A stretch of DNA of 12,680 bases from Lentisphaerota bacterium. Lineage in GTDB: Bacteria > Verrucomicrobiota > Kiritimatiellia > JAAZAB01. Within the stretch, counting starts at the first letter, position 1. Each line of letters opens with the position of its first letter. The notes under the pieces were generated by a model. It had not been told where the DNA came from. It saw only the letters and a program-made list of their open reading frames with translations, and searched no databases. A program made the position numbers and the translations under genes. Shown here piece after piece: positions 2,983 to 12,680 of this stretch. The stretch lies in assembly GCA_016182435.1 (NCBI GenBank), contig JACPGN010000079.1, positions 1 through 12,680 on the forward strand, written 5' to 3'.

Positions 2983-3112
2983 CCCAGCGCTGCGCACTGG
3001 GCTATGATATAGCACCCCTTTGGGGTGCATTGTCAGCAGGCCAAAGGCCTGCAACACTTGTCCTGCGTAGCCTCTGGCGAAGCAGGATCATAGCCTGGGG
3101 TGTAACCCCAGG
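2983..3112. repeat. Tandem array of six hairpins between the methyltransferase and reductase genes
   Basis: In order: CCCAG/CTGGG (2983-3001), GCTAT/ATAGC (3001-3013), GCACCCC/GGGGTGC with a TTT loop (3012-3028), GCAGGCC/GGCCTGC with an AAA loop (3036-3052), TCCTGC/GCAGGA (3061-3087) and CCTGGGGT/ACCCCAGG (3094-3112). Neighbouring stems share bases, so alternative folds compete. The array fills most of the 252-nt gap between the two minus-strand genes; I see no ORF in that gap. The fifth hairpin carries a motif related to the one near 11290-11310. Confidence 0.75.
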
Positions 3113-4091: not shown

Positions 4092-4757
4092 CTATTTGCC
4101 GGCCGTAATTGCCGGGCTCAGATGGTAGCCGCGCATCGCGGTCTCCTGGTGCCACGAGGTCGCCGCGCTCGAGCCGAACAGGATCATGGCAATGGCCGCA
4201 AGAATCAGCACGGCGCGCACGGCACTGCGTTCGATCCCAATAAGCCGCAGGGTCAGCGCCACCCAGAAAATCGAAAAGGCCAGAGCGGCCACCATCGTGC
4301 GCGCGGCCGCCGGAAGATCGAAATGCCAGAAGAGCACCAGGCGGAACCAGGGCCATTGGACCGTCTCGCTATTCTGCTTGCGCGCCAGGGCGATTTTAAG
4401 ATTGTGACGCAGGTCAGCCTGGGCGCCGCCGAAACGTTCGGCGCGCTCAAACGCCGCAATGGCCGCATCAATCTGCCCGGCCTGCAACAGGGCGGTACCC
4501 AGGTTATAAAACAAGCTTCCATTGCGCACGCCGGAATCAACCAGTTTCTGATACGTCTGGGCCGCTTGCAGGTAGGCTGCCGGCGTGCGTGCGGCGGCCA
4601 GGCGCGCTTGAGCTTCGTTCCAAATGAAAGAGCGTTCGGGAGCGTCGAGGGCCCAGAGTGCCCGGCTTGATAGCAAGCTGCCGATTACAACCAAGGCCGG
4701 CAAATAAAGCCAAGCGATGGGAAGACGGAATTTCGGGTAATAAACGGCGATGTTCAT
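4092..4757 (-). CDS. batE: BatE-like TPR membrane protein, apparently lacking the C-terminal SH3 part
   Basis: This 221-aa protein has an N-terminal hydrophobic segment (about 13-35; signal or anchor), a TPR-like region (45-125, with YNLGTALLQAGQIDAAIAAF at 84-103 as the clearest repeat), and two membrane helices (about 152-172 and 178-198). It ends shortly after, in HLSPAITAGK. BatE proteins usually continue past the second helix with an SH3-like domain that begins with a similar strand, so the C-terminus looks cut short; a palindromic repeat lies just beyond the stop. Its ATG overlaps the BatD stop (ATGA), showing translational coupling. Bat systems are linked to aerotolerance and envelope stress in Bacteroides, Francisella and Leptospira, with unknown mechanism. 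The symbol rests on architecture and position. Confidence 0.75.
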   Translation of the reverse strand: MNIAVYYPKFRLPIAWLYLPALVVIGSLLSSRALWALDAPERSFIWNEAQARLAAARTPAAYLQAAQTYQKLVDSGVRNGSLFYNLGTALLQAGQIDAAIAAFERAERFGGAQADLRHNLKIALARKQNSETVQWPWFRLVLFWHFDLPAAARTMVAALAFSIFWVALTLRLIGIERSAVRAVLILAAIAMILFGSSAATSWHQETAMRGYHLSPAITAGK

Positions 4758-6733
4758 GCTGGCTTCCGTTTCTCATTGGCTTGGAGAGAGTGCTCGATAG
4801 CTTTAATCAGCTTCAAAAGCTTCCGGCCGTCGTTGATCAGGTTATTCAATTCAGCCCGTGTTGAAAAGCCGGCATTGAAATAATGTTCAAAGAGGCGGCT
4901 TAGCTCCTCGGCCAAATGCTGAGGCACGCCGGCTTTGGTCAACAAGTGCCGGGCATCCTCCGGGGTAAGCCCAGCACTGGAAACCTCCAGCCGCTCGCCC
5001 AGGTATTGACGGATGACGGCACAGACCAGATTGGCGGTGGAAGAATCCCGCGAAACGCGGGACAAGTCCCGCGCGGCGCGTGACTTCTCCGCTACACCCG
5101 ACTTGATCGCCGCGTTGAGCCGCTGCTGGGCATGCGCGCAAGAGAGTTGCCGCCGCCGGGCGGCCTTGTATTTTTCGCTATGCTCCTGGTAAAAGCGGAT
5201 TATCAGGCCGATCAGGAATAAGCCGGGTCCGGCCCCGGCCACTGTCAACCAGGCCGGGTGGCCCAGCAGCTCGGCCGGCTCCGCGCCCGCGGCGCCATTG
5301 CGCGCCGCCGCGATTTTGCGGGTGCGCTCATCGTCTTTCCTGGCTGCCTCTTGCAGGCGATTGGTGTCGCCCAAAATCTCCGAAGCCGTAACTTCCGTGC
5401 TGCGTTTAACCGCCAGCGGGATCGGGTCGGTCGCGATGGTTTTGTAACTGCGGCTTTGGACATCATAATAGGCTACTTCAATCGGCGGCACCTGGAATGC
5501 TCCGGCGCGCGTCGGTCGCAGAGTGTAAATATACTGACAGGTCGTGTCCCGTTTAATCGTTTGCACGGTGTTATCGTAGACCATGAAATGCGTAAGCAGG
5601 TTGGTTTGCAGCGCTAACTTCGGCGGCAGCATTTTGTCAAAGCGCACTTGCCCGGTTAGTTCCAGCGTCAGTTTCAGAGGATCGCCCACGGAACAGGTGG
5701 TTGTGTCTAAGCTGGCTTTGGCCGCGAGGTTGCTGCCGATGGCGCCGGTAAAGCTGCCGGGGCGACCTTGCTCGGGCGGCGGAATTACCCGCACCGTGCA
5801 GGCCGGGCCGACCGCAAAAATGGCCATACCGTGGATTTGGCCTGAGTCGTCCGGCGCGACCGGCGCGGACCCCTTGAAGACCGCCGGGCCGAACACATAG
5901 TTGCCCTCATCCTTGGGAGTATAGGGAAGAGTAAGATAATATTCCACATAATTGTTTCCGTCCTGCCGAACCATACGCCGGGGAAACGCGAACACGGCCC
6001 GCCGGCGGCCGCCCGGCAAGAAGCTGCCGAAATCAAACAAATCGGGCTGGCGTGTATAATCGTTGATGGCGAACCCCGGCCGGTTATTCGGGAGCAGCAT
6101 GTTATTCAAGAGCCGCCCGAGGTCGGGTCCGGCAGGTCCGCCAATGCCTTCCAGCTCCAGCCACGGAATGGTCAGGTGCGGGGGATTATCGGGGAAAATC
6201 GGCTCGGCTTCGGCCAGCTTGTCCGGCAAGCACTTGATTTGCACGGTGAGCGTAATCTCAAACGGCTCGTCAATCAGCACCGTCTCGCGGGAGGAGGTGA
6301 TGGCCAGCTTGACTAACTCCTGTTTTGCGATATCAGTGACGGTTACTACAGGTCCTTCGGTCGCGTAGGGAAGACCGTTCACGGTGACAGTAACGGGTCC
6401 GGCCCGGAAAGGCCCGGCGACCAAGGGGGTCATTTCGTAATTGATGATCACACCGGAAAACTCCTGGCGGGTCATCTGGCCGTTCACAAAACTGATGCTG
6501 AACTTACTGATGTTCTGCTGGCCCAGATTGCGGACCTTGACGTTCTTGATCTGGGAAAGGTCGGGCTCGGCCGCGCTCACCCCCGCGACGTTGACTTGCA
6601 GAATAAACGATTCGCCAAGGTAGAGCTGGCTGCGGTTGGCCTCAGCTTTTACGGTTATCTCATCGGCCGCCAGCGGCAGAACGGCAAAAAGCCCAAGGAA
6701 AATCGCCGCCATTTTCTTTACAAAGAATTGCAT
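4754..6733 (-). CDS. batD: BatD family exported beta-rich membrane protein
   Basis: From the ATG at 6733 the protein has 659 aa. It starts with a signal peptide (MQFFVKKMAAIFLGLFAVLP, cleavage likely after LAA), followed directly by EITVKAEANRSQLYLGESF, the usual opening of BatD (oxygen-tolerance, COG-type) proteins. Several Ig-like beta domains follow: about 24-140, 141-315 with LIDEPFEITLTVQI, and 335-445 with SVGDPLKLTLELTG. There is one membrane helix (494-513), then a cytoplasmic helical domain (520-659). The ORF is open upstream for 111 more codons, but that part is palindromic intergenic DNA and would bury the signal peptide. No clear Shine-Dalgarno sequence precedes the chosen start. 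DLSRVSRD (556-563) is encoded by a palindromic repeat. The gene lies between the BatB-BatC fusion and BatE, as in standard bat operons. Confidence 0.88.
   Translation of the reverse strand: MQFFVKKMAAIFLGLFAVLPLAADEITVKAEANRSQLYLGESFILQVNVAGVSAAEPDLSQIKNVKVRNLGQQNISKFSISFVNGQMTRQEFSGVIINYEMTPLVAGPFRAGPVTVTVNGLPYATEGPVVTVTDIAKQELVKLAITSSRETVLIDEPFEITLTVQIKCLPDKLAEAEPIFPDNPPHLTIPWLELEGIGGPAGPDLGRLLNNMLLPNNRPGFAINDYTRQPDLFDFGSFLPGGRRRAVFAFPRRMVRQDGNNYVEYYLTLPYTPKDEGNYVFGPAVFKGSAPVAPDDSGQIHGMAIFAVGPACTVRVIPPPEQGRPGSFTGAIGSNLAAKASLDTTTCSVGDPLKLTLELTGQVRFDKMLPPKLALQTNLLTHFMVYDNTVQTIKRDTTCQYIYTLRPTRAGAFQVPPIEVAYYDVQSRSYKTIATDPIPLAVKRSTEVTASEILGDTNRLQEAARKDDERTRKIAAARNGAAGAEPAELLGHPAWLTVAGAGPGLFLIGLIIRFYQEHSEKYKAARRRQLSCAHAQQRLNAAIKSGVAEKSRAARDLSRVSRDSSTANLVCAVIRQYLGERLEVSSAGLTPEDARHLLTKAGVPQHLAEELSRLFEHYFNAGFSTRAELNNLINDGRKLLKLIKAIEHSLQANEKRKPA
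5046..5068 (-). repeat. In-frame palindromic repeat, copy A (in batD)
   Basis: TCCCGCG (5046-5052), AAA, CGCGGGA (5056-5062), then CAAGTC. On the coding strand it starts exactly with the Asp556 codon and encodes DLSRVSRD. It matches copy B at 7561-7583 in 22 of 23 bases. A second GC palindrome (GTCCCGCG/CGCGTGAC type) adjoins it at 5066-5084. Confidence 0.8.
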
Positions 6734-6771
6734 TGGAACTTGAACATATATAACCGGTGCCGGGGTGTCAA

Positions 6772-6890
6772 TCGGCCTCGGTCTGGTTGGTGTGTCCCGG
6801 GCCCATGAGGCCGACGTCATACTATGACGTCCTACAGAGGCCAGCGCCATCCCTCCCGATGCAGAACAAGGGACTGCATCGGGATGGCGC
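6772..6890. repeat. Palindromes upstream of batD
   Basis: Three structures are seen: TCGGCCTC (6772-6779) against GAGGCCGA (6807-6814); a nearly loopless palindrome GACGTCATA/TATGACGTC (6813-6831, one central base); and a long hairpin with TCCCGATGCAG (6854-6864) pairing CTGCATCGGGA (6874-6884), extended by GCGCCAT (6844-6850) with ATGGCGC (6884-6890). With the neighbouring direct repeats they fill almost the whole 292-nt gap between the fusion gene and batD. No gene is visible there. Confidence 0.75.
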
Positions 6891-6907
6891 CCTAAAGTGA
6901 TGTATCC

Positions 6908-7017
6908 ACGTGCAACGCGCTTCTGTAGTGCGTCACAGTGTGGCGCGGTTCTATCACACTTTATAAAGTGTGATATGACGTGCAACGAGCTTCTGTAGCG
7001 CGTCACAGTGTGACGCG
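6908..7017. repeat. Pair of 40-bp direct repeats around a 24-bp perfect palindrome
   Basis: The units at 6908-6947 and 6978-7017 match in 37 of 40 positions; both begin ACGTGCAACG. Between them, 6952-6975 is a perfect 24-bp palindrome with arms beginning TATCACACTT. Each 40-bp unit ends in its own hairpin, perfect in the second (CGCGTCACA/TGTGACGCG) and with one mismatch in the first. The array begins 9 nt after the stop of the BatB-BatC gene on the transcribed strand. Confidence 0.8.
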
Positions 7018-7025
7018 TCCTATTT

Positions 7026-10004
7026 CTACCAGTCCTTCTCCACCGGCGATGGCGGGATATAAGCATCCGGCCGGCGTTCCTCGCGGTGTTCCTTGTCCCG
7101 TTGCTGGGCTTTTTCCAGGAGCGCGCGCGCCTGTTCAGGAGTCATGGTCTTGTCCTTGTCCGGTTCCGCGCTCTGTTGCTCCTCCCGCGGTTGAGGCTGA
7201 TGCGGCTGCTCCTCCGGCGGTTGCGGCTGAGATTCTTTTGGCTGGGGAGGCGGTTGCGGCGCAGTCTCTTGTTGTTGCGACTGTTGCTGCTGCTGATCTT
7301 GGGGGGACTGTTCCTGCTGTTGATTTTGCTCCTGCTCCTGCGGTTGCTGGTCTTGCTTCTTCGGCAGCAGCTTTTCGATTTCTTTCAAGAGCTCATACGC
7401 CTTACGTTGGTCGGGTAGGGCTGCCGTGAGGTTAGTTCCTCCAATAGCTTTAAGCGCCCGGCCTTGCAAAGTGACAGCCTCGCGCGCCAGCGCCAGAATG
7501 TTCGTGCGCGTTTCCGCCGTGATTTCCTGCTGGTTTTCCAACGCGTTGGTCATAGCCATTTCCCGCGAAGCGCGGGACAAGTCCGGTGAGCGGTTGGTTG
7601 ACACGAGGCCGGCATGTTGAGGCGCCGAGCCGCCTGGCGGAACCGCCTGGGAGAAGCGCTCGATGAACTCTCCGGTCAACGCCTGGGCTTCGCTCTGCTG
7701 ATAACGGATGACCGGCAATTCAACTTCCGCGGCGCGGGTCAGAACCGAGGTCGTCAGGGCAATTGCGTTGGTCTGGCGCCAGATATCCTCGCGAAGCAAC
7801 TGCGGAAAACCAGCCAGGCCTTTCCACAGCGAATAAATGCCGGACTCTGAAGTCATGGCTTCTCGGTAGGCCTCGGGTTCCAGGTTGCGCAGACTTTCCG
7901 TGGCCTGCTGCATGAGTGTCCGTAGAGCCTCAAGGTGCTGTTCAACCTGCTGGGTTTGCGGCGCAGCGGAAGTGGCGGCTGGAGCTTGGTGGGCCGCTGC
8001 CTCGGCCAGTCGAGCTTTCAAGGGAATCAGCAAATCGGCGTTATCCCGCTCCTCTTTGCTCAAGCTCTCCAGTTGACCGATCCGGGAAGGCGCGTTGTTG
8101 GTCAGGGCCGGGCGCAAGCCCTCAATCAACCGGCGTTGATTCACCAGCATCATATCGGCCAACTGCGCCGGCGGAGTTCCCTGGTAGCGCTCCAACAGTG
8201 ATTTGATTTTAGCCTCCTCGCGGGCGGCGGGCAGGAGGTTGCTGACTACGCACAAATTAGCCCGCGCGGCTTCATCCTGCGTGTTAAGGCGCAAGGCCTG
8301 CTGAAAGGCCTGTCCGGCGCGTTCCAGCATTTTGGGGCGTGTATCCGGCGGCAGATTGGTTCCGGCGGCTTGGGCTTGTTCGGCCAGTTGAAACGCCGCG
8401 CAGCCGGAATTGTAGCTGGCCGCCGCGGAATCGGAAATTGGGGTCATGGTCAACTCGCTGAATTTTTCGGCGGCCGCCTGATATTGACCCGCCCGGTAGA
8501 GCGCGCAGGCGGCATTGAAGCTGCAATTATTTTGCAGAGCCGGAGTCTGGCCTTGAGCGGCCTGCAAATAGGCTTCAGAGGCTTCCTGATATTTTCCAAG
8601 CCAATACAGCTTTTGGGCGCGCCGGGCGCCGGCGCGGCCAACGGCTTCGGGCTTGACCGGCGTGAGGTTGGTTGACGAAACGTTTACGGATTGAATATTC
8701 GTCCGATCCGCGCCGGACGCCTGAACCGGATTTGTGGCGGGGAGCGCCGTCAAGGCCTGAGCCTGTGCCAGGTCAACGGTCAACGACCACGCTAGGAATG
8801 CGGCGACGGAGCCCGTCGCCCTCCAGAGGGATGGATTATGGAGGGCGGTCGGCTCGACCGCCGGCATGCGGAATCGGCGGCAGAGCCCGTCGCCCTCCCT
8901 GGGAGGTGATGTCTTGTATGGAGGGCGGACCTCCGTGTCCGCCGCGCCGGCGGCTCGCGCGGCCTTTAGTGTTTGACTATCAGATTGGGCCGGAGACTTT
9001 TTCCGAGCGCCAAGCCGTCCTTTACTCAGCAGGGCGCCCGCCAGGAAGGCCAACACGGCGGGCAAGAGAAAGAGCTGGTAGCGCTCAACATATTGGCGCC
9101 GGATCGTCTCGGCGATGTCGCGCGCGGCGAGCTTGCTCAAGTGATCGCGGTAGAGCGCGCCGAGTTTGACATTAGCCGTGCCGACCGGCACGTAGGCGCC
9201 TCCGGTGATTTCAGCGATGGATTTCAGCGTCTCATGCTGGAGCCGGGTTACTACAGCCTGGCCCTGGTAGGTCATGAAATCGCGCGGGCGTGTTGAGCTG
9301 GGGATTTTAGCGCCCTGCGGGTCGCCCAGCCCGACGGTAAAAATGGCGACGCTTTTTTTCCGGGCGACTTCGGCCATGGCCTTGGCCCGGCCGGCCAAGT
9401 CCTCGCCATCGGAAATCAGAATAATGGCCTGGTAGGCGCCGGCGTCGCTTTCAAAGGCGTCCAGGGCCTTGGCAATGGCATCCCCGATATCAGTTTCGCC
9501 CCGTGGTGCCGAGTCCGGCGAAACATCGGCCAGAGTCTGCTCAAGATAAGCATAGTCGGTAGTCAGCGGGCAAAGCTGAACGGCCTTGCCGCGGAAAACG
9601 ATCAGGGCGGCGCGGTCGCCGCGCAGCTCGCGCAGCAAATCCTGGATATCGGTCTTAGCCCGCTGGAGGCGGTTGGGGTGAACGTCCTGGGCCAGCATGG
9701 AACGCGAGACATCGAGCGCGATGGTCAGATCGCGGCCGCGCTGCAGGACCGTTTCCGTGCGCAGGCCCCATTGCGGCCGGGCCGCGGCAATCAGGGCCAG
9801 CGCGAAGCCGAGCAGTACCAAGGCCCATTGCCAGTAAAAAAGAGCGGCTTGGGGCGCGGGAGCAAGTTTCGGACGCATGACCGGCGATAGAAACCGCTCC
9901 AGCGCTCTGGCCCGGCGCCGCCGGGCCGCCAGAGCGATAATGCCCAGGGCCGGCACGAGCCAGAGCAAAACGAGCAGCCAGGGATTAACGAATTGAATCT
10001 GCAT
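7026..10004 (-). CDS. batB: BatB VWA protein fused to a BatC-type TPR protein
   Basis: One uninterrupted 992-aa frame joins proteins that are normally separate. Residues 1-330 are BatB: N-terminus MQIQFVNPWLLVLLWLVP, membrane helices at about 8-27 and 60-76, a VWA domain with MIDAS motif DVSRS (98-102), GETDIGD (169-175) and ISDGED (197-202), and a third helix at 311-328. Residues 354-401 are encoded by two tandem palindromic repeats. A signal-peptide-like stretch follows (395-417, AAFLAWSLTVDLAQAQA). Then come TPR-like helices (about 455-600), a long helical region (600-880) containing DLSRASRE (808-815), a Gln/Pro/Glu-rich stretch (883-945), and a BatC-type end, PVEKDW. The start at 10004 is chosen over upstream GTGs because BatB proteins begin this way. 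The positive-inside rule puts the linker in the cytoplasm and VWA and TPR outside. Internal initiation at ATG 8867 or cleavage after AQA could still give two proteins. Confidence 0.82.
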   Translation of the reverse strand: MQIQFVNPWLLVLLWLVPALGIIALAARRRRARALERFLSPVMRPKLAPAPQAALFYWQWALVLLGFALALIAAARPQWGLRTETVLQRGRDLTIALDVSRSMLAQDVHPNRLQRAKTDIQDLLRELRGDRAALIVFRGKAVQLCPLTTDYAYLEQTLADVSPDSAPRGETDIGDAIAKALDAFESDAGAYQAIILISDGEDLAGRAKAMAEVARKKSVAIFTVGLGDPQGAKIPSSTRPRDFMTYQGQAVVTRLQHETLKSIAEITGGAYVPVGTANVKLGALYRDHLSKLAARDIAETIRRQYVERYQLFLLPAVLAFLAGALLSKGRLGARKKSPAQSDSQTLKAARAAGAADTEVRPPYKTSPPREGDGLCRRFRMPAVEPTALHNPSLWRATGSVAAFLAWSLTVDLAQAQALTALPATNPVQASGADRTNIQSVNVSSTNLTPVKPEAVGRAGARRAQKLYWLGKYQEASEAYLQAAQGQTPALQNNCSFNAACALYRAGQYQAAAEKFSELTMTPISDSAAASYNSGCAAFQLAEQAQAAGTNLPPDTRPKMLERAGQAFQQALRLNTQDEAARANLCVVSNLLPAAREEAKIKSLLERYQGTPPAQLADMMLVNQRRLIEGLRPALTNNAPSRIGQLESLSKEERDNADLLIPLKARLAEAAAHQAPAATSAAPQTQQVEQHLEALRTLMQQATESLRNLEPEAYREAMTSESGIYSLWKGLAGFPQLLREDIWRQTNAIALTTSVLTRAAEVELPVIRYQQSEAQALTGEFIERFSQAVPPGGSAPQHAGLVSTNRSPDLSRASREMAMTNALENQQEITAETRTNILALAREAVTLQGRALKAIGGTNLTAALPDQRKAYELLKEIEKLLPKKQDQQPQEQEQNQQQEQSPQDQQQQQSQQQETAPQPPPQPKESQPQPPEEQPHQPQPREEQQSAEPDKDKTMTPEQARALLEKAQQRDKEHREERRPDAYIPPSPVEKDW
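7170..7358 (-). other. Low-complexity Gln/Pro/Glu-rich coding segment
   Basis: Glutamine runs such as QDQQQQQSQQQ and proline/glutamate alternations occupy residues about 883-945 of the fusion protein, encoded by CAG/CAA-rich DNA. Such linkers are typical before the C-terminus of BatC-type proteins. The reverse frame gives a Leu-rich spurious ORF. Length variation by slippage is plausible. Confidence 0.75.
7561..7583 (-). repeat. In-frame palindromic repeat, copy B (in the BatB-BatC fusion)
   Basis: TCCCGCG (7561-7567), AAG, CGCGGGA (7571-7577), then CAAGTC. It is identical to copy A except for one base, in the same orientation and reading frame, beginning at the Asp808 codon and encoding DLSRASRE. 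Confidence 0.8.
8802..8943 (-). repeat. Two tandem palindromic units forming the BatB-BatC linker
   Basis: Unit 1 (8802-8862) contains GGCGACGG/CCGTCGCC (8802-8820), GCCCTCCA/TGGAGGGC (8818-8846) and GGCGGTCG/CGACCGCC (8844-8862). Unit 2 (8876-8943) repeats the order: the core AGAGCCCGTCGCCCTCC, TATGGAGGGCGG, and GGCGGAC/GTCCGCC (8924-8943). The shared words GAGCCCGTCGCCCTCC and ATGGAGGGCGG show they are copies of one element of about 65 bp. Both stay open in the coding frame and encode residues about 354-401. Confidence 0.75.
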
Positions 10005-10017
10005 TTTGTAATTACTC

Positions 10018-10095
10018 ACCACGGATTACACGGATGGCACTGATATGGAATTTGGGCCGGCTTTTCCCATCCGTGTTATCAGTGTAATCAGTGGT
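10018..10095. repeat. Inverted repeat of CACGGAT-type units before batB
   Basis: ACCACGGATTACACGGAT (from 10018) is the imperfect complement of the 3' arm ending ...GTGTAATCAGTGGT at 10095; both arms are about 28 nt on a common axis and are built of short ACACNGAT-like words. It occupies most of the 122-nt gap between batA and batB, overlapping the weak batB upstream region. A small hairpin CGGGC/GCCCG (10111-10124) lies next to the batA stop. Confidence 0.65.
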
Positions 10096-10126
10096 TGATT
10101 TTTTGGGTTTCGGGCCCAAGCCCGCC

Positions 10127-11161
10127 TTAAATAATTTCCCGGCGGGCAGTCATATTCAGCGAAGTTGCCGCGAGGAGCGCCAGCAATCCGGGCAAAAGGA
10201 ACCGGGAAAATAATTCCGTGTACTGGTTGTAGATCTCCTGGCGGATACTGGTTTTTTCAAGTTTATCAATGTCGGCAAAAGCCCGGGCCAGGCCCTTGGG
10301 GTCGCGGACGTTGAAATACTGCGCGAGAGTAGTGGAGGCAATGCGGCGCAGCAGGTCTTCATCAATCCGGACTTCGGCGTATTGAATGACGTTCCGGCCG
10401 AAGACGTCGCGAACCATGAACGGCGCGCGGCCGTTGGAGCCCACGCCGATGGTGTAGACCTTGATCCCCAGCGCCTTGGCGGCCTTGATGGCCTCGTCCG
10501 GCTTGATAATTCCGGTGTTGGATTCGCCGTCGCTCAAGAGCACGATGATTTTTGATTTGATCTCGGATTTTTCCAACCGGGCGCAGGCGGTGGCCATAGC
10601 ATCGCCGATGGCGGTCAGCAGCTCTTCCTGATTGGCCAATTGCCCGTTGGCGTCCAGCGCCGGCTTGGGGATCTGGACTCCCTTTAGGACGTGCCGCAGC
10701 GCGCTGTGGTCAATGGTCAGCGGCACACGGCTGGTGGCATAGCCGCCGAAGGTTACCAGGCCGATAAGATCATCGGGGCGCTTAGCGATGAACTGGTTGA
10801 ACGTTTCCTTGACCACGTCTAAGCGCGTGCGCACGGCATCGCGCGTGGAAAAATCCAATGCCTCCATTGAGCCGGAAACGTCCACCACCATCTGGATGGC
10901 GATAGCGTCGGCCTGCCGGGCGGTCCTGGCGAACACGGTTTGCGGGCGGGCCAGGGCAATGATGGCCAGGAGCGCGCCGGCCAGGAAGAGCGCCGGCGCG
11001 ACCACGAGCGCGGCCGTTCGCCAACTCCAGGGCGCGGTTCGAAGGCGATGGGTAGGGGCGAAGAGAATAGCCTGGCTTCGGCGGCGCGCGAGCACCGCCC
11101 AGGCGGCCGCAGCGAGCGGAATCAGCAGCAGCAAATAATATGGATCGGCAAACCGGAACAT
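10127..11161 (-). CDS. batA: BatA, VWA-domain membrane protein
   Basis: This 344-aa protein has the standard BatA layout: N-terminus MFRFADPYYLLLLIPLAAAA with membrane helices at about 7-25 and 50-71, then ARPQ just after the second helix, a VWA domain (about 87-300), and a C-terminal helix (318-335). The metal-ion-dependent adhesion site is intact: DVSGS at 94-98, Thr183 in LLTAIGDA, and Asp211 in LLSDGES. The arrangement predicts the VWA domain on the outer face of the membrane with a short cytoplasmic tail. A stretch around IPKPALDANGQLANQEEL (164-181) is somewhat longer than usual before the conserved TAIGDA. It is followed after 122 nt by batB and preceded by the DUF4381-like gene. The start is supported by AGG 7 nt upstream, a weak site. 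Identification is firm at family level; the in vivo ligand is unknown. Confidence 0.9.
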   Translation of the reverse strand: MFRFADPYYLLLLIPLAAAAWAVLARRRSQAILFAPTHRLRTAPWSWRTAALVVAPALFLAGALLAIIALARPQTVFARTARQADAIAIQMVVDVSGSMEALDFSTRDAVRTRLDVVKETFNQFIAKRPDDLIGLVTFGGYATSRVPLTIDHSALRHVLKGVQIPKPALDANGQLANQEELLTAIGDAMATACARLEKSEIKSKIIVLLSDGESNTGIIKPDEAIKAAKALGIKVYTIGVGSNGRAPFMVRDVFGRNVIQYAEVRIDEDLLRRIASTTLAQYFNVRDPKGLARAFADIDKLEKTSIRQEIYNQYTELFSRFLLPGLLALLAATSLNMTARREII

Positions 11162-11198
11162 GGTGAACCTGTAAATCTAAGCATAGGAATTTCAAAGT

Positions 11199-11246
11199 TG
11201 TAGCCGGGGTCGCCGACCCGGACCGGCCTCAGCGAGGCCGGCTACA
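11199..11246. repeat. Cruciform-type repeat between the DUF4381-like gene and batA
   Basis: The outer stem TGTAGCC (11199-11205) pairs GGCTACA (11240-11246) and encloses two inner hairpins, GGGTC/GACCC (11207-11219) and CCGGCCT/AGGCCGG (11223-11241). The inner right arm shares bases with the outer stem. The TGTAG...CTACA frame resembles the middle stem at 4034-4057. It sits 38 nt upstream of the batA start. Confidence 0.75.
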
Positions 11247-11252
11247 GTTTTT

Positions 11253-11271
11253 AGTTGCCGAAGGCCTAATT
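11253..11271 (+). repeat. Short dispersed repeat, copy 2
   Basis: AGTTGCCGAAGGCCTAATT is the partner of the copy at 1785-1802, with one extra G. Downstream, CTTCGCCAAGGCTTCGCAGG (11291-11310) resembles the reverse complement of the fifth hairpin at 3061-3087 (CTTCGCCAGAGGCTACGCAG), so two repeat families are shared between these distant gaps. Confidence 0.55.
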
Positions 11272-11317
11272 AAATGTCAGTTGTCCCTACTTCGCCAAGG
11301 CTTCGCAGGGCAAGCCG

Positions 11318-12397
11318 TCATCCGCCGTCCCGCTCGGAGCGGGATAAATCTGTCGCTTGCCACGCGTCCCGCGTGGTCCGTCGTCTGTCCTCCGTTGTCA
11401 GTGTTCGGTTGTCCGTTTCAATATAATCCCGGGCGGTGCCTAAGGCCCGGTCAATAATCGCCGGTTCGGGGCGGTAAACCGCGAACTTTACCAGGTCGGC
11501 GGTCTGGAGAAAGGCCCGCAGTTTGCCCAGAACCTCAGCGTGGAACCGCGGATTGTAAGAGGCGGCCAGCAAAAACTCCTCCGTGGTCTGTTCCGGCGCG
11601 CGGATGCGGTGCGCGCGTTCGATGTAGCGGCGGACAATTCCGGTCAGTTCCAGAAAGAATTCCTTGACCTGGTTTTGGGCGATCAAGTCGCGCTGCATCA
11701 GGTCGGCCAGTTCCCGCAAGGCGCGTTCGCGGGGCGACATGCGGAGCAAGCGGATAGCGCGCTGCAAGCGGCGGGCGAGCCGGTAGAGCGCCCAAAAAGC
11801 CGCGGCCGCCAGCGCGCCCGCGCCGGCCCAGCCGGCCACCGTCGTGAACGCCGGATAAATCCAGACCGGAGGACGAATGTCGCGGATGGAGGTTCCGGGC
11901 TGCCCGCTGCCAAGGGGCGCGACTTCAAAAACCAGGGCGCGGGTGGCAAACCAGTTTTCCAGCGGCTTGGGGCCGCTCGTATCGGTATAAGTCACGGCTA
12001 TAGGGGCCAGCCGGTATTCGGCGGCAATGAGCGGCGTCAGCCGGAAACAGTGTTCGCGGGTGATGGCGTCATTCCGGATGATTGGCTCGCGCTCAAAGGC
12101 CCCGCTCAAGGCGAATCCGGAGAACCGATCGTCCAGGGCCGGCAAACGAACCATGATATTGGTCGGCGCTTTTATTTTGATGGAAAGGAGAATATCGCGG
12201 GGCAAGTGAACCCGGGGCGGGTCGGCGGTCATGACGAGCTCCACGGGCCCCGATGAAAAATTCTCAACGCGGGGCGTGGCATTGGTAATTGCCGCCGGCG
12301 CATTGGCCAAGCCGGCAGCGGCGAACAGGCCAATGAACAAAGCAATAGCTATCAAGGCAATCGTTAACTTTATGGACAGGAAATTAACATTCATCAT
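11318..12397 (-). CDS. BatD/DUF4381-like membrane protein, 359 aa
   Basis: The chosen start (ATG 12397) gives a signal peptide, MMNVNFLSIKLTIALIAIAL onward, with likely cleavage near ANA (31-33). A beta-rich exported domain follows (about 45-165, with VELVMTADPPRVHLPRDILL resembling the BatD opening), then a membrane helix (180-205), and a cytoplasmic helical domain (220-325) with VKEFFLELTGIVRRYIERAH, the hallmark of DUF4381/BatD C-termini. The last 30 residues (330-359) are odd: they are encoded by heptameric and palindromic repeats and include DLSRSERD (350-357). The frame is open for 26 more codons upstream, overlapping the DUF58 gene, but that would bury the signal peptide. It sits between DUF58 and batA, a usual position for such proteins in bat operons. 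No clear Shine-Dalgarno sequence is seen; several ATGs from a heptamer repeat crowd the start. Confidence 0.8.
   Translation of the reverse strand: MMNVNFLSIKLTIALIAIALFIGLFAAAGLANAPAAITNATPRVENFSSGPVELVMTADPPRVHLPRDILLSIKIKAPTNIMVRLPALDDRFSGFALSGAFEREPIIRNDAITREHCFRLTPLIAAEYRLAPIAVTYTDTSGPKPLENWFATRALVFEVAPLGSGQPGTSIRDIRPPVWIYPAFTTVAGWAGAGALAAAAFWALYRLARRLQRAIRLLRMSPRERALRELADLMQRDLIAQNQVKEFFLELTGIVRRYIERAHRIRAPEQTTEEFLLAASYNPRFHAEVLGKLRAFLQTADLVKFAVYRPEPAIIDRALGTARDYIETDNRTLTTEDRRRTTRDAWQATDLSRSERDGG
11328..11376 (-). repeat. In-frame palindromic repeat, copy C, plus adjacent hairpin
   Basis: TCCCGCT (11328-11334), CGG, AGCGGGA (11338-11344), then TAAATC to 11350. On the coding strand it begins at the Asp350 codon and encodes DLSRSERD, the same phase as copies A and B though more diverged. 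Next to it CCACGCG/CGCGTGG (11360-11376) forms another perfect 7-bp, 3-nt-loop hairpin within the coding sequence. Confidence 0.65.
11366..11421 (-). repeat. Seven- to eight-copy heptamer tandem repeat (GTnnTCn) in coding sequence
   Basis: Successive 7-mers from 11366 read GTCCCGC, GTGGTCC, GTCGTCT, GTCCTCC, GTTGTCA, GTGTTCG, GTTGTCC and GTTTCAA. The GT at the start of each unit is invariant and TC is nearly so. Read on the coding strand it encodes residues about 326-344, rich in Thr, Arg and Asp. Copy-number change by anything but three units would shift the reading frame. Confidence 0.65.
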
Positions 12398-12416: not shown

Positions 12417-12680
12417 TCACCCCCTGCGCAAGCGGCGCCGGCGCAGGTAGAAAAGGCGGTGCACATCATCAACAAAAGGGCGGTCGGTTGTCAGGGTCAG
12501 GCAGTCCATCTTGAACCGCAGAAATTGTTTGGCCAGCGCCTGTTGCTCGGCGGCGGCTTGGCGCTGGAACTGCGCCAACAACCGGCGGCAACGGGTATCC
12601 ACCAGCAGGAGTTCGCCCGTTTCCGGGTTGAGAACTTCCAGCAGCCCGGCGTCAGGCAGGCAAAGTTCGCGGGGATCGGC
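12417..12680 (-). CDS. DUF58-family protein, C-terminal part (runs off the window)
   Basis: The last 87 residues are present; the frame is open to the window edge, so the start lies outside. The visible part begins ADPRELCLPDAGLLEVLNPE and continues with TGELLLVDT, then ends in LTTDRPFVDDVHRLFYLRRR. DPRE-LPD-G, GE-LLVDT, and TDRP followed by a basic tail are the conserved C-terminal signatures of DUF58 proteins, which keep a degenerate VWA-like fold. DUF58 genes almost always follow a MoxR AAA+ ATPase gene and precede bat genes, consistent with the order here. The next gene starts 20 nt after this stop, through a heptamer repeat. Internal GTG or ATG codons could give shorter ORFs, but the conserved residues upstream show they are not the start. 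Confidence 0.88.
   Translation of the reverse strand, partial: ADPRELCLPDAGLLEVLNPETGELLLVDTRCRRLLAQFQRQAAAEQQALAKQFLRFKMDCLTLTTDRPFVDDVHRLFYLRRRRLRRG

Follow-up and report, generated by a model that had tools for sequence, protein, structure and literature searches.

Why should three neighbouring genes in one operon of a bacterium, two of them coding for Bat proteins, each carry the same short palindrome in the same orientation and codon phase? The question arises in a 12,680-nucleotide (nt) stretch from a Lentisphaerota bacterium (contig JACPGN010000079.1, assembly GCA_016182435.1), here called the window, in which copies A, B and C of the palindrome lie in batD, in a BatB-BatC fusion gene and in a third gene. 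An earlier note on this DNA offered two answers: a small coding-compatible mobile repeat, or a peptide containing DLSR under selection in interacting Bat proteins. Our analysis argues for a form of the first answer. The unit is probably a micro-element resembling repetitive extragenic palindromes (REPs): a 21-nt hairpin with a 7-bp stem and a 3-nt loop, tagged with CTTG or TTTA, mostly intergenic, and in part doubled, tail to tail across a 7-nt spacer, next to degenerate heptads. Copies A, B and C are probably not a Bat peptide motif.

Copies A (5046-5068) and B (7561-7583) are exact minus-strand matches to GACTTGTCCCGCGYTTCGCGGGA that differ from each other by one base, and two or more matches to the 23-mer, with up to 3 mismatches allowed, appeared in none of 200 window shuffles. 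Copy C (11328-11350) reads GATTTATCCCGCTCCGAGCGGGA and, with 7 of its 23 bases differing by eye, shares the head pattern and palindrome of A; its seventh stem pair has changed from G-C to T-A, a compensated change, and its tag context is GATTTA against GACTTG. D-L-S-R is read in the coding frame at all three copies, all on the minus strand. Pattern matching and translation thus agree with the earlier note on where the three units lie, on the single base between A and B, and on their common orientation, phase and DLSR. Its 23-bp unit keeps its coordinates, but the sequence inserted at B measures 21 nt, the leading GA being flank. The claim of three in-frame gene insertions holds for A and B, whereas C makes up one half of a doublet, 49 nt long with two hairpins, in a C-terminal tail derived from repeats. 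The parts of these copies are as follows.

5046..5066, minus strand: copy A, a 21-nt module with CTTG tag (5063-5066) and hairpin (5046-5062), in batD; reads LSRVSRD after Asp
5067..5083, minus strand: decayed second hairpin TCACGCGCCGCGCGGGA, head-to-tail with A and directly upstream of it on the minus strand, 3 mismatches to the palindrome
7561..7581, minus strand: copy B, a 21-nt module with CTTG tag (7578-7581) and hairpin (7561-7577), in the BatB-BatC fusion; by alignment a clean gain relative to locus L001
11318..11410, minus strand: C-terminal tail of the third gene, derived from repeats and made up of heptad-like units and the doublet, reading NRTLTTEDRRRTTRDAWQATDLSRSERDGG; boundary set by eye
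11328..11344, minus strand: copy C hairpin, which is hairpin 2 of the doublet
11345..11348, minus strand: TTTA tag of copy C
11349..11355, minus strand: 7-nt spacer CGACAGA, a heptad resembling the flanking CGACGGA and CGGCGGA
11356..11359, minus strand: CAAG tag of doublet hairpin 1
11360..11376, minus strand: doublet hairpin 1, CCACGCGGGACGCGTGG

The counts that define the module come from the genomes of relatives: six searched first (G001-G006), ten of the order, and 387 of the phylum, the last being a draw from a larger phylum set with G002 and G007 outside it. Each module is 21 nt long: a 4-nt YTTR tag and then a 17-nt hairpin, in which a 3-nt loop closes seven stem pairs. The tag is one-sided: among 114 bare palindromes (45 in G001, 32 in G003, 37 in G005) it stood on exactly one side in 90 (31, 26 and 33, respectively), on both sides in none and on neither in 24, while YTTR at eight other offsets occurred on 0-5 of 228 sides. 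These 90 tags were spelled CTTG (46), TTTA (34), TTTG (7) or CTTA (3). A wider control under a loose hairpin rule gave 109 hits for RTTY against 130 for YTTR in 309,504 bases; at such similar densities the loose rule fails to separate the family, and the tag claim rests on the 114-palindrome count.

The stem covaries. Its seventh pair is complementary at 104 of 124 sites and G-T at 10 more, with four Watson-Crick types present; this set, like the 128-site set below, includes sites drawn by the GAYTTR pattern. Pairing holds in 99.1% of stem cells across 24 doublets, and two-sided changes fill 21 cells against 6.8 after shuffling (none of 500 shuffles as high), whereas sliding the partner column by 1 to 3 leaves 26-60% paired. 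The CTTG module is open in all six reading frames and the TTTA module in five of six, with a stop in one.

The unit is also dispersed. GAYTTRTCCCGCN5GCGGGA matched 13, 10, 4, 2, 5 and 0 times in G001-G006 and the backwards pattern in none, and the bare TCCCGCN5GCGGGA matched 45, 31, 32, 5, 37 and 1 times against 0, 0, 0, 1, 0 and 2 for its backwards control; the unit is present in five of the six genomes first searched and in seven of ten of the order. Across the 387 phylum genomes the doublet pattern GGCAAGN7YTTRTCCCGC was found 27 times in G001, 13 in G003, 3 in G010, once each in G004 and G005, and as single matches in six others, with 2 matches in total for the backwards control. As far as searched, the hairpin family is confined to this Kiritimatiellota lineage. 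Within the literature library searched, no prior report came up of tandem repeats under the name Kiritimatiell, of palindromic repeats under that name among the papers listed, or of small dispersed repeats (SDRs) or heptamer repeats in Nostoc; Kiritimatiell and Verrucomicrob are both absent from the main text of the RepRanger paper (PMC12306157).

Most modules lie between genes, even though about 83% of the loci is coding. Gene calls throughout follow our own hexamer coding score rather than annotation, and 14 of the 114 palindromes were left out of the gene and frame census. By this score 28 of 128 distinct sites are intragenic, with coding score on both sides, and 100 are not, 6 of the latter being inside a script-called gene. 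Setting aside 17 without two neighbours, 77 intergenic sites could be classed by gene orientation: 59 unidirectional, 11 convergent and 7 divergent. A bias against divergent gene pairs was considered and not adopted; on plain counts such gaps hold 7 of 77 sites and about 18% of the intergenic sequence. By eye, modules also stand in the loop of another REP hairpin at L009 and apparently at L007, which suggests that looped DNA can be a module target.

Modules can come in pairs with a recurrent layout: hairpin-CAAG-N7-YTTR-hairpin, tail-to-tail, 49 nt long. A scan of 630 kb of loci, mostly drawn around palindromes and counting symmetric doublets twice, gave 43 rows with spacers of 7 nt (37), 4 nt (4) or 8 nt (2), and scrambled-tag controls gave 0, 0, 0 and 2. 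The spacer resembles the outer flanking 7 nt, as in CGACAGA/CGACGGA, CATCGAA/CGCCCAA and CCTCTGA/CCTCTGA. Over 26 doublets, in-register mean identity to the spacer was 4.73/7 for the right flanking heptad and 4.42/7 for the left, and still 4.19/7 one heptad further out, compared with 1.1-2.7 for out-of-register shifts. Spacers paired with the flanks of other loci gave 3.4 on the left and 3.8 on the right, and none of 5000 permutations reached the observed values. Because the doublet measures 49 nt, its hairpins stay in heptad phase. Arrays in the loci have the same preference, with 30 of period 7 against 1-6 for each other period from 4 to 13, and with 17 of period 14 and 15 of period 21; one of the 29 heptad arrays listed is a run of N that would score at other periods too. 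Heptamer arrays are known from several phyla, according to passages of PMC4679880. Separately, long heptanucleotide arrays of differing sequence (for example TCCATCG and ACGGCAG) occur in the same lineage at L100, L019, L074 and L147.

Copies inside genes allow insertion to be examined directly, and the three host genes in the window are these.

4754..6733, minus strand: batD (PF13584), from Pfam
7026..10022, minus strand: BatB-BatC fusion gene, a VWA domain and a long C-terminal part, from the open reading frame (ORF) list, Pfam and homologues
11318..12397, minus strand: copy C host gene, without a Pfam family; start from the script gene call, ORF start at 12475

Copy B gives the clearest case. 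Deleting exactly 21 nt restores alignment with L001, the nearest relative, with 42 of 60 right-flank and 38 of 60 left-flank positions identical, whereas deletions of 15-20 or 22-27 nt leave 11-21 of 60 on the right. This DNA comparison is with L001 alone, L003 and L004 being too variable there. The peptide is missing from the other 28 aligned BatB/C proteins, of which, by eye, 27 have a gap and P0129 has other residues. Judged by this alignment, B has gained exactly 21 nt, in frame, compared with L001.

At A, the BatD linker holds a TTTA module, GATTTATCCCGCTCCGAGCGGGA, at the same place and in the same frame in L002, a decayed copy in L003, a longer CTTG-tagged hairpin in L001 and none in L004. 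Since a decayed hairpin lies directly upstream, A may be a tandem of two modules, and its linker records either repeated insertions at one site or one old insertion that was rewritten. The longer hairpin of L001 was considered as a second CTTG-tagged family, CTTGTCCCGC-GTAGC...GCGAAG, and not established: seven genomes yielded 2 matches, one in G007 and one in G001 (C45), the latter, with the same 28 letters, taken as the L001 linker itself.

At C, the orthologues in L001 and L004 terminate soon after YIETD or YIDTD, and the window frame extends past that end through heptad-like repeats and a full doublet, a tail of about 30 residues. It would be wrong to take copy C for an insertion within conserved protein sequence. 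The label 'DUF4381-like' in the earlier note could not be confirmed, as the host gene of C matched no Pfam family at E <= 0.001. Alignment of the Bat proteins, the check which that note proposed, reveals a clean insertion at B, a copy in a variable linker at A, and one in a non-conserved tail at C.

Beyond the window, the modules occupy ordinary, unrelated genes. Pfam was run on 19 intragenic-site and edge ORFs, and 17 had a family at E <= 0.001. In MutL the copy lies at residue 393, past a domain that ends at 348 and ahead of one that starts at 446; in an E2 acyltransferase at residue 136, between the lipoyl and E3-binding domains; and in HypF at residue 280, ahead of the Sua5 domain at 303. 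Other hosts include DegT, a CHASE2-cyclase, a histidine kinase and the C-terminus of DNA polymerase III delta'. Around the DegT copy (L178 / L012:782-2170), heptad-like repeats and a hairpin doublet account for an insert of some 53 residues. Matches to many homologues break here, running to about residue 207-211 and resuming from about 264, and the stretch is a gap in four of nine aligned loci (L179, L180, L182, L185), the aligner placing gaps elsewhere in the other five. In HypF (L168-L173), five relatives carry different inserted sequence of varied length at one interdomain linker. Among periods 4-11, period 7 dominates in the linker DNA of G010 (0.54), G002 (0.59) and G004 (0.44), and barely so in G003, which holds the doublet (0.35 against 0.34); no rise is seen in G005 (0.24), where other sequence is inserted, or in G009 (0.28), which has the shortest linker.

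Reading frames speak to the peptide directly. Besides 7 untagged sites, the 28 intragenic sites include 21 of known orientation, which use the frames sense DLSR (7), sense PA (3), sense PR (1), antisense SRxxRDKS (2), antisense PAxxG (7) and antisense IP (1); copies A and B of the window and the copy in the L002 BatD supply three of the seven in the DLSR frame. With all six frames used, 14 of 21 copies outside the DLSR frame, and unrelated host genes, the evidence supports the coding-compatible repeat of the earlier note and not its selected peptide. The mobile part of that answer stands as far as the unit is dispersed and insertable, given its presence in five of six and seven of ten genomes, the gain at B and the unrelated hosts; a transposition event was not observed.

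A mechanism may be proposed on this basis. Copies would spread as folded single-stranded DNA, or RNA, and would be captured at heptad arrays, at other hairpins and at interdomain linkers. Within genes a module would be tolerated where frame and linker allow, since 21 nt equal seven codons and the module is open in six (CTTG) or five of six (TTTA) frames. The DLSR peptide would then be a by-product of one of the six frames.

Several observations count against the tagged micro-element. Of the palindromes, 24 of 114 are untagged, and the variation in loop and stem among copies gives no sign of a recent burst. A CAAG-ended partner hairpin within 60 nt is often missing from tagged palindromes (G005, 22 of 24; G003, 13 of 23; G001, 16 of 31; with 100 of the 114 palindromes counted and 78 tagged), which means that the doublet is not the sole form, and the spacer match falls to 2.77/7 two heptads away. 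No enzyme was linked to the modules, the YTTR-TCCCGC module occurring at none of 12 Y1-transposase loci. The evidence for dispersal comes from the genomes of relatives and not from the source genome of the window. Edges cannot be placed exactly for A and several further intragenic copies, which sit in variable linkers, and the DLSR frame, at 7 of 21, exceeds one in six on a plain count, so weak selection on the peptide is conceivable.

How else might such a pattern arise? One answer, which we consider unlikely, is an oddly tagged family of REPs or of REP doublets forming hairpins (REPINs), mobilised by a REP-associated tyrosine transposase (RAYT, a Y1 transposase). Y1_Tnp genes occur in five of the six genomes, and a one-end tag, a hairpin and inverted pairs are REP anatomy in passages of PMC3733652, but the tag here is CTTG or TTTA rather than GTAG, and the 12 RAYT loci without the module cover all but 4 of the 16 Y1_Tnp matches listed, those 4 having no locus. 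L063 and L067 carry hairpins that are GTAG-tagged by our own rule, L061 and L062 carry other hairpins, and G002 has 10 copies with no Y1_Tnp match in an assembly of only 2.0 Mb. That the hairpins are instead selected as RNA signals, terminators or stability elements overlapping genes by chance, is quite improbable. Such signals would fit the mostly intergenic sites (28 of 128 intragenic despite the coding density), the stem covariation and the low count in divergent gaps, yet sites occur in every gene orientation, some within reading frames on either strand, and arm-to-arm copying can also yield covariation.

A third process would move nothing: local slippage and template switching would build heptads and hairpins in place. 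The heptad arrays do have many different sequences, the spacer is similar to the local heptad, and passages of PMC4679880 describe heptanucleotide repeats as the most abundant 5-11 nt class in most surveyed genomes, with polymerase slippage proposed. Identical hairpin and tag spellings nevertheless occur with unrelated heptads and in genes without heptads, and we hold this origin to be improbable to a similar degree. Selection of DLSRxSRD in interacting Bat proteins seems very improbable indeed. It draws on the frame common to three neighbouring genes, on the surplus of that frame overall and on the BatD linker, where L002 has DLSRSERD and L001 DLSRRS at the same place; yet of 35 aligned BatD proteins only 4, that of the window among them, have DLSR there, and by eye in none of the 28 other BatB/C proteins. 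The same DNA is found in MutL, DegT, HypF and E2 and in other frames, and C lies in a non-conserved tail.

The REP-like micro-element thus remains our preferred reading. A bolder extension, doubtful at this stage, would make it a separate class copying in a 7-nt register, in which 21-nt tagged hairpins (3 x 7 nt) and heptad arrays would be products of one system that repeatedly fills interdomain linkers with new disordered sequence (BatD, HypF, DegT, E2, MutL).

The window comes from a Kiritimatiellota-like bacterium: the nearest BatD, at 79%, belongs to JACPGM010000151.1, labelled Lentisphaerae bacterium NC_groundwater_387, and further close homologues are labelled Kiritimatiellota or Verrucomicrobiota. 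A scan of the window against Rfam gave no matches. It holds other repeats as well. A REP hairpin pair at 1699-1782 (GTGTAGTAGCGGTTC..GAACCGC and its inverse) resembles tandem hairpins that L062 carries next to a Y1 transposase gene, and a group of GGAGGGCGG/GGCGACGG-type hairpins with a 24-nt repeat (8796-8960), located in the BatB-BatC gene, looks like another in-frame repeat insertion. Intergenic DNA at 3009-3112 has a GC-rich hairpin cluster (3012, 3036, 3094) with CTTGTCCTGC at 3057, and an inverted repeat, CACGGATTACACGGATGGCACTGAT...ATCAGTGTAATCAGTGG, lies between two VWA genes at 10010-10100. An inverted element, TCATTCCCGCGCAAGCGGGAATCC...GGATTCCCGATTAGATCGGGAATGA, occupies 48-116, and two 40-nt direct repeats, 93% alike, stand upstream of batD (6908-7017) with a hairpin at 6999-7017.

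How very small repeats spread without a known enzyme is a long-standing puzzle. The clear edges of this module (its tag and its 21 nt), the recurrent doublet layout and an exact empty site make both mobility and the enzyme testable. The module also offers a route by which protein linkers gain sequence in seven-residue steps, and it calls for caution before repeat-coded peptides such as DLSR are taken for meaningful motifs.

The nearest kinds to this family are tagged REPs and, by description, cyanobacterial SDRs. The latter, in the work of Elhai et al. from 2008, are said to be hairpins of 21-27 nt with compensatory changes, often in tandem heptamer arrays and with nested insertions. On that description they would match the module in its 21 nt and covarying hairpin, in doublets amid heptads, and in modules nested in the loop of another REP hairpin; the module belongs to an unrelated phylum.

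Tagged REPs offer a second comparison. In passages of Di Nocera et al. 2013 (PMC3733652), most REPs are sorted by GTAG or CGTC tags and form inverted dimers, in-frame intragenic REPs are most numerous in Opitutus terrae (GTAG) and Rickettsia conorii (CGTC), and different REPs occupy about the same recB site in two Xanthomonas species. The module likewise is a short dispersed palindrome (21 nt against 20-40 bp), mostly extragenic, with an unpaired 4-nt tag at one end and inverted dimers, its doublets being tail-to-tail and not every copy paired; the BatD linker, filled by different tagged hairpins in relatives, recalls the recB site. Unlike REPs of the two known super-families, GTAG and CGTC, the module is tagged with CTTG or TTTA, its doublets have a 7-nt spacer that resembles the heptads nearby, and no RAYT link was seen.

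Rickettsia palindromic elements (RPEs) resemble the module, by description, in that palindromes have entered unrelated proteins in frame; passages of PMC3733652 match RPE-4 and RPE-6 to the CGTC REPs and describe RPE-1 as longer, and the module differs in its tag. REPINs, as passages of PMC3116915 describe them, are also inverted doublets of REP-like hairpins, whereas no module flanks a RAYT in 12 loci and the spacer is 7 nt in most doublets. Heptamer direct repeats such as TAACTGA, in passages of PMC4679880, share the degenerate or exact 7-nt intergenic arrays found in several phyla, and the module family adds a tagged hairpin doublet. Taken together, the module follows a known plan, the tagged REP-like hairpin, in an unusually small unit with a tag and a doublet layout of its own.

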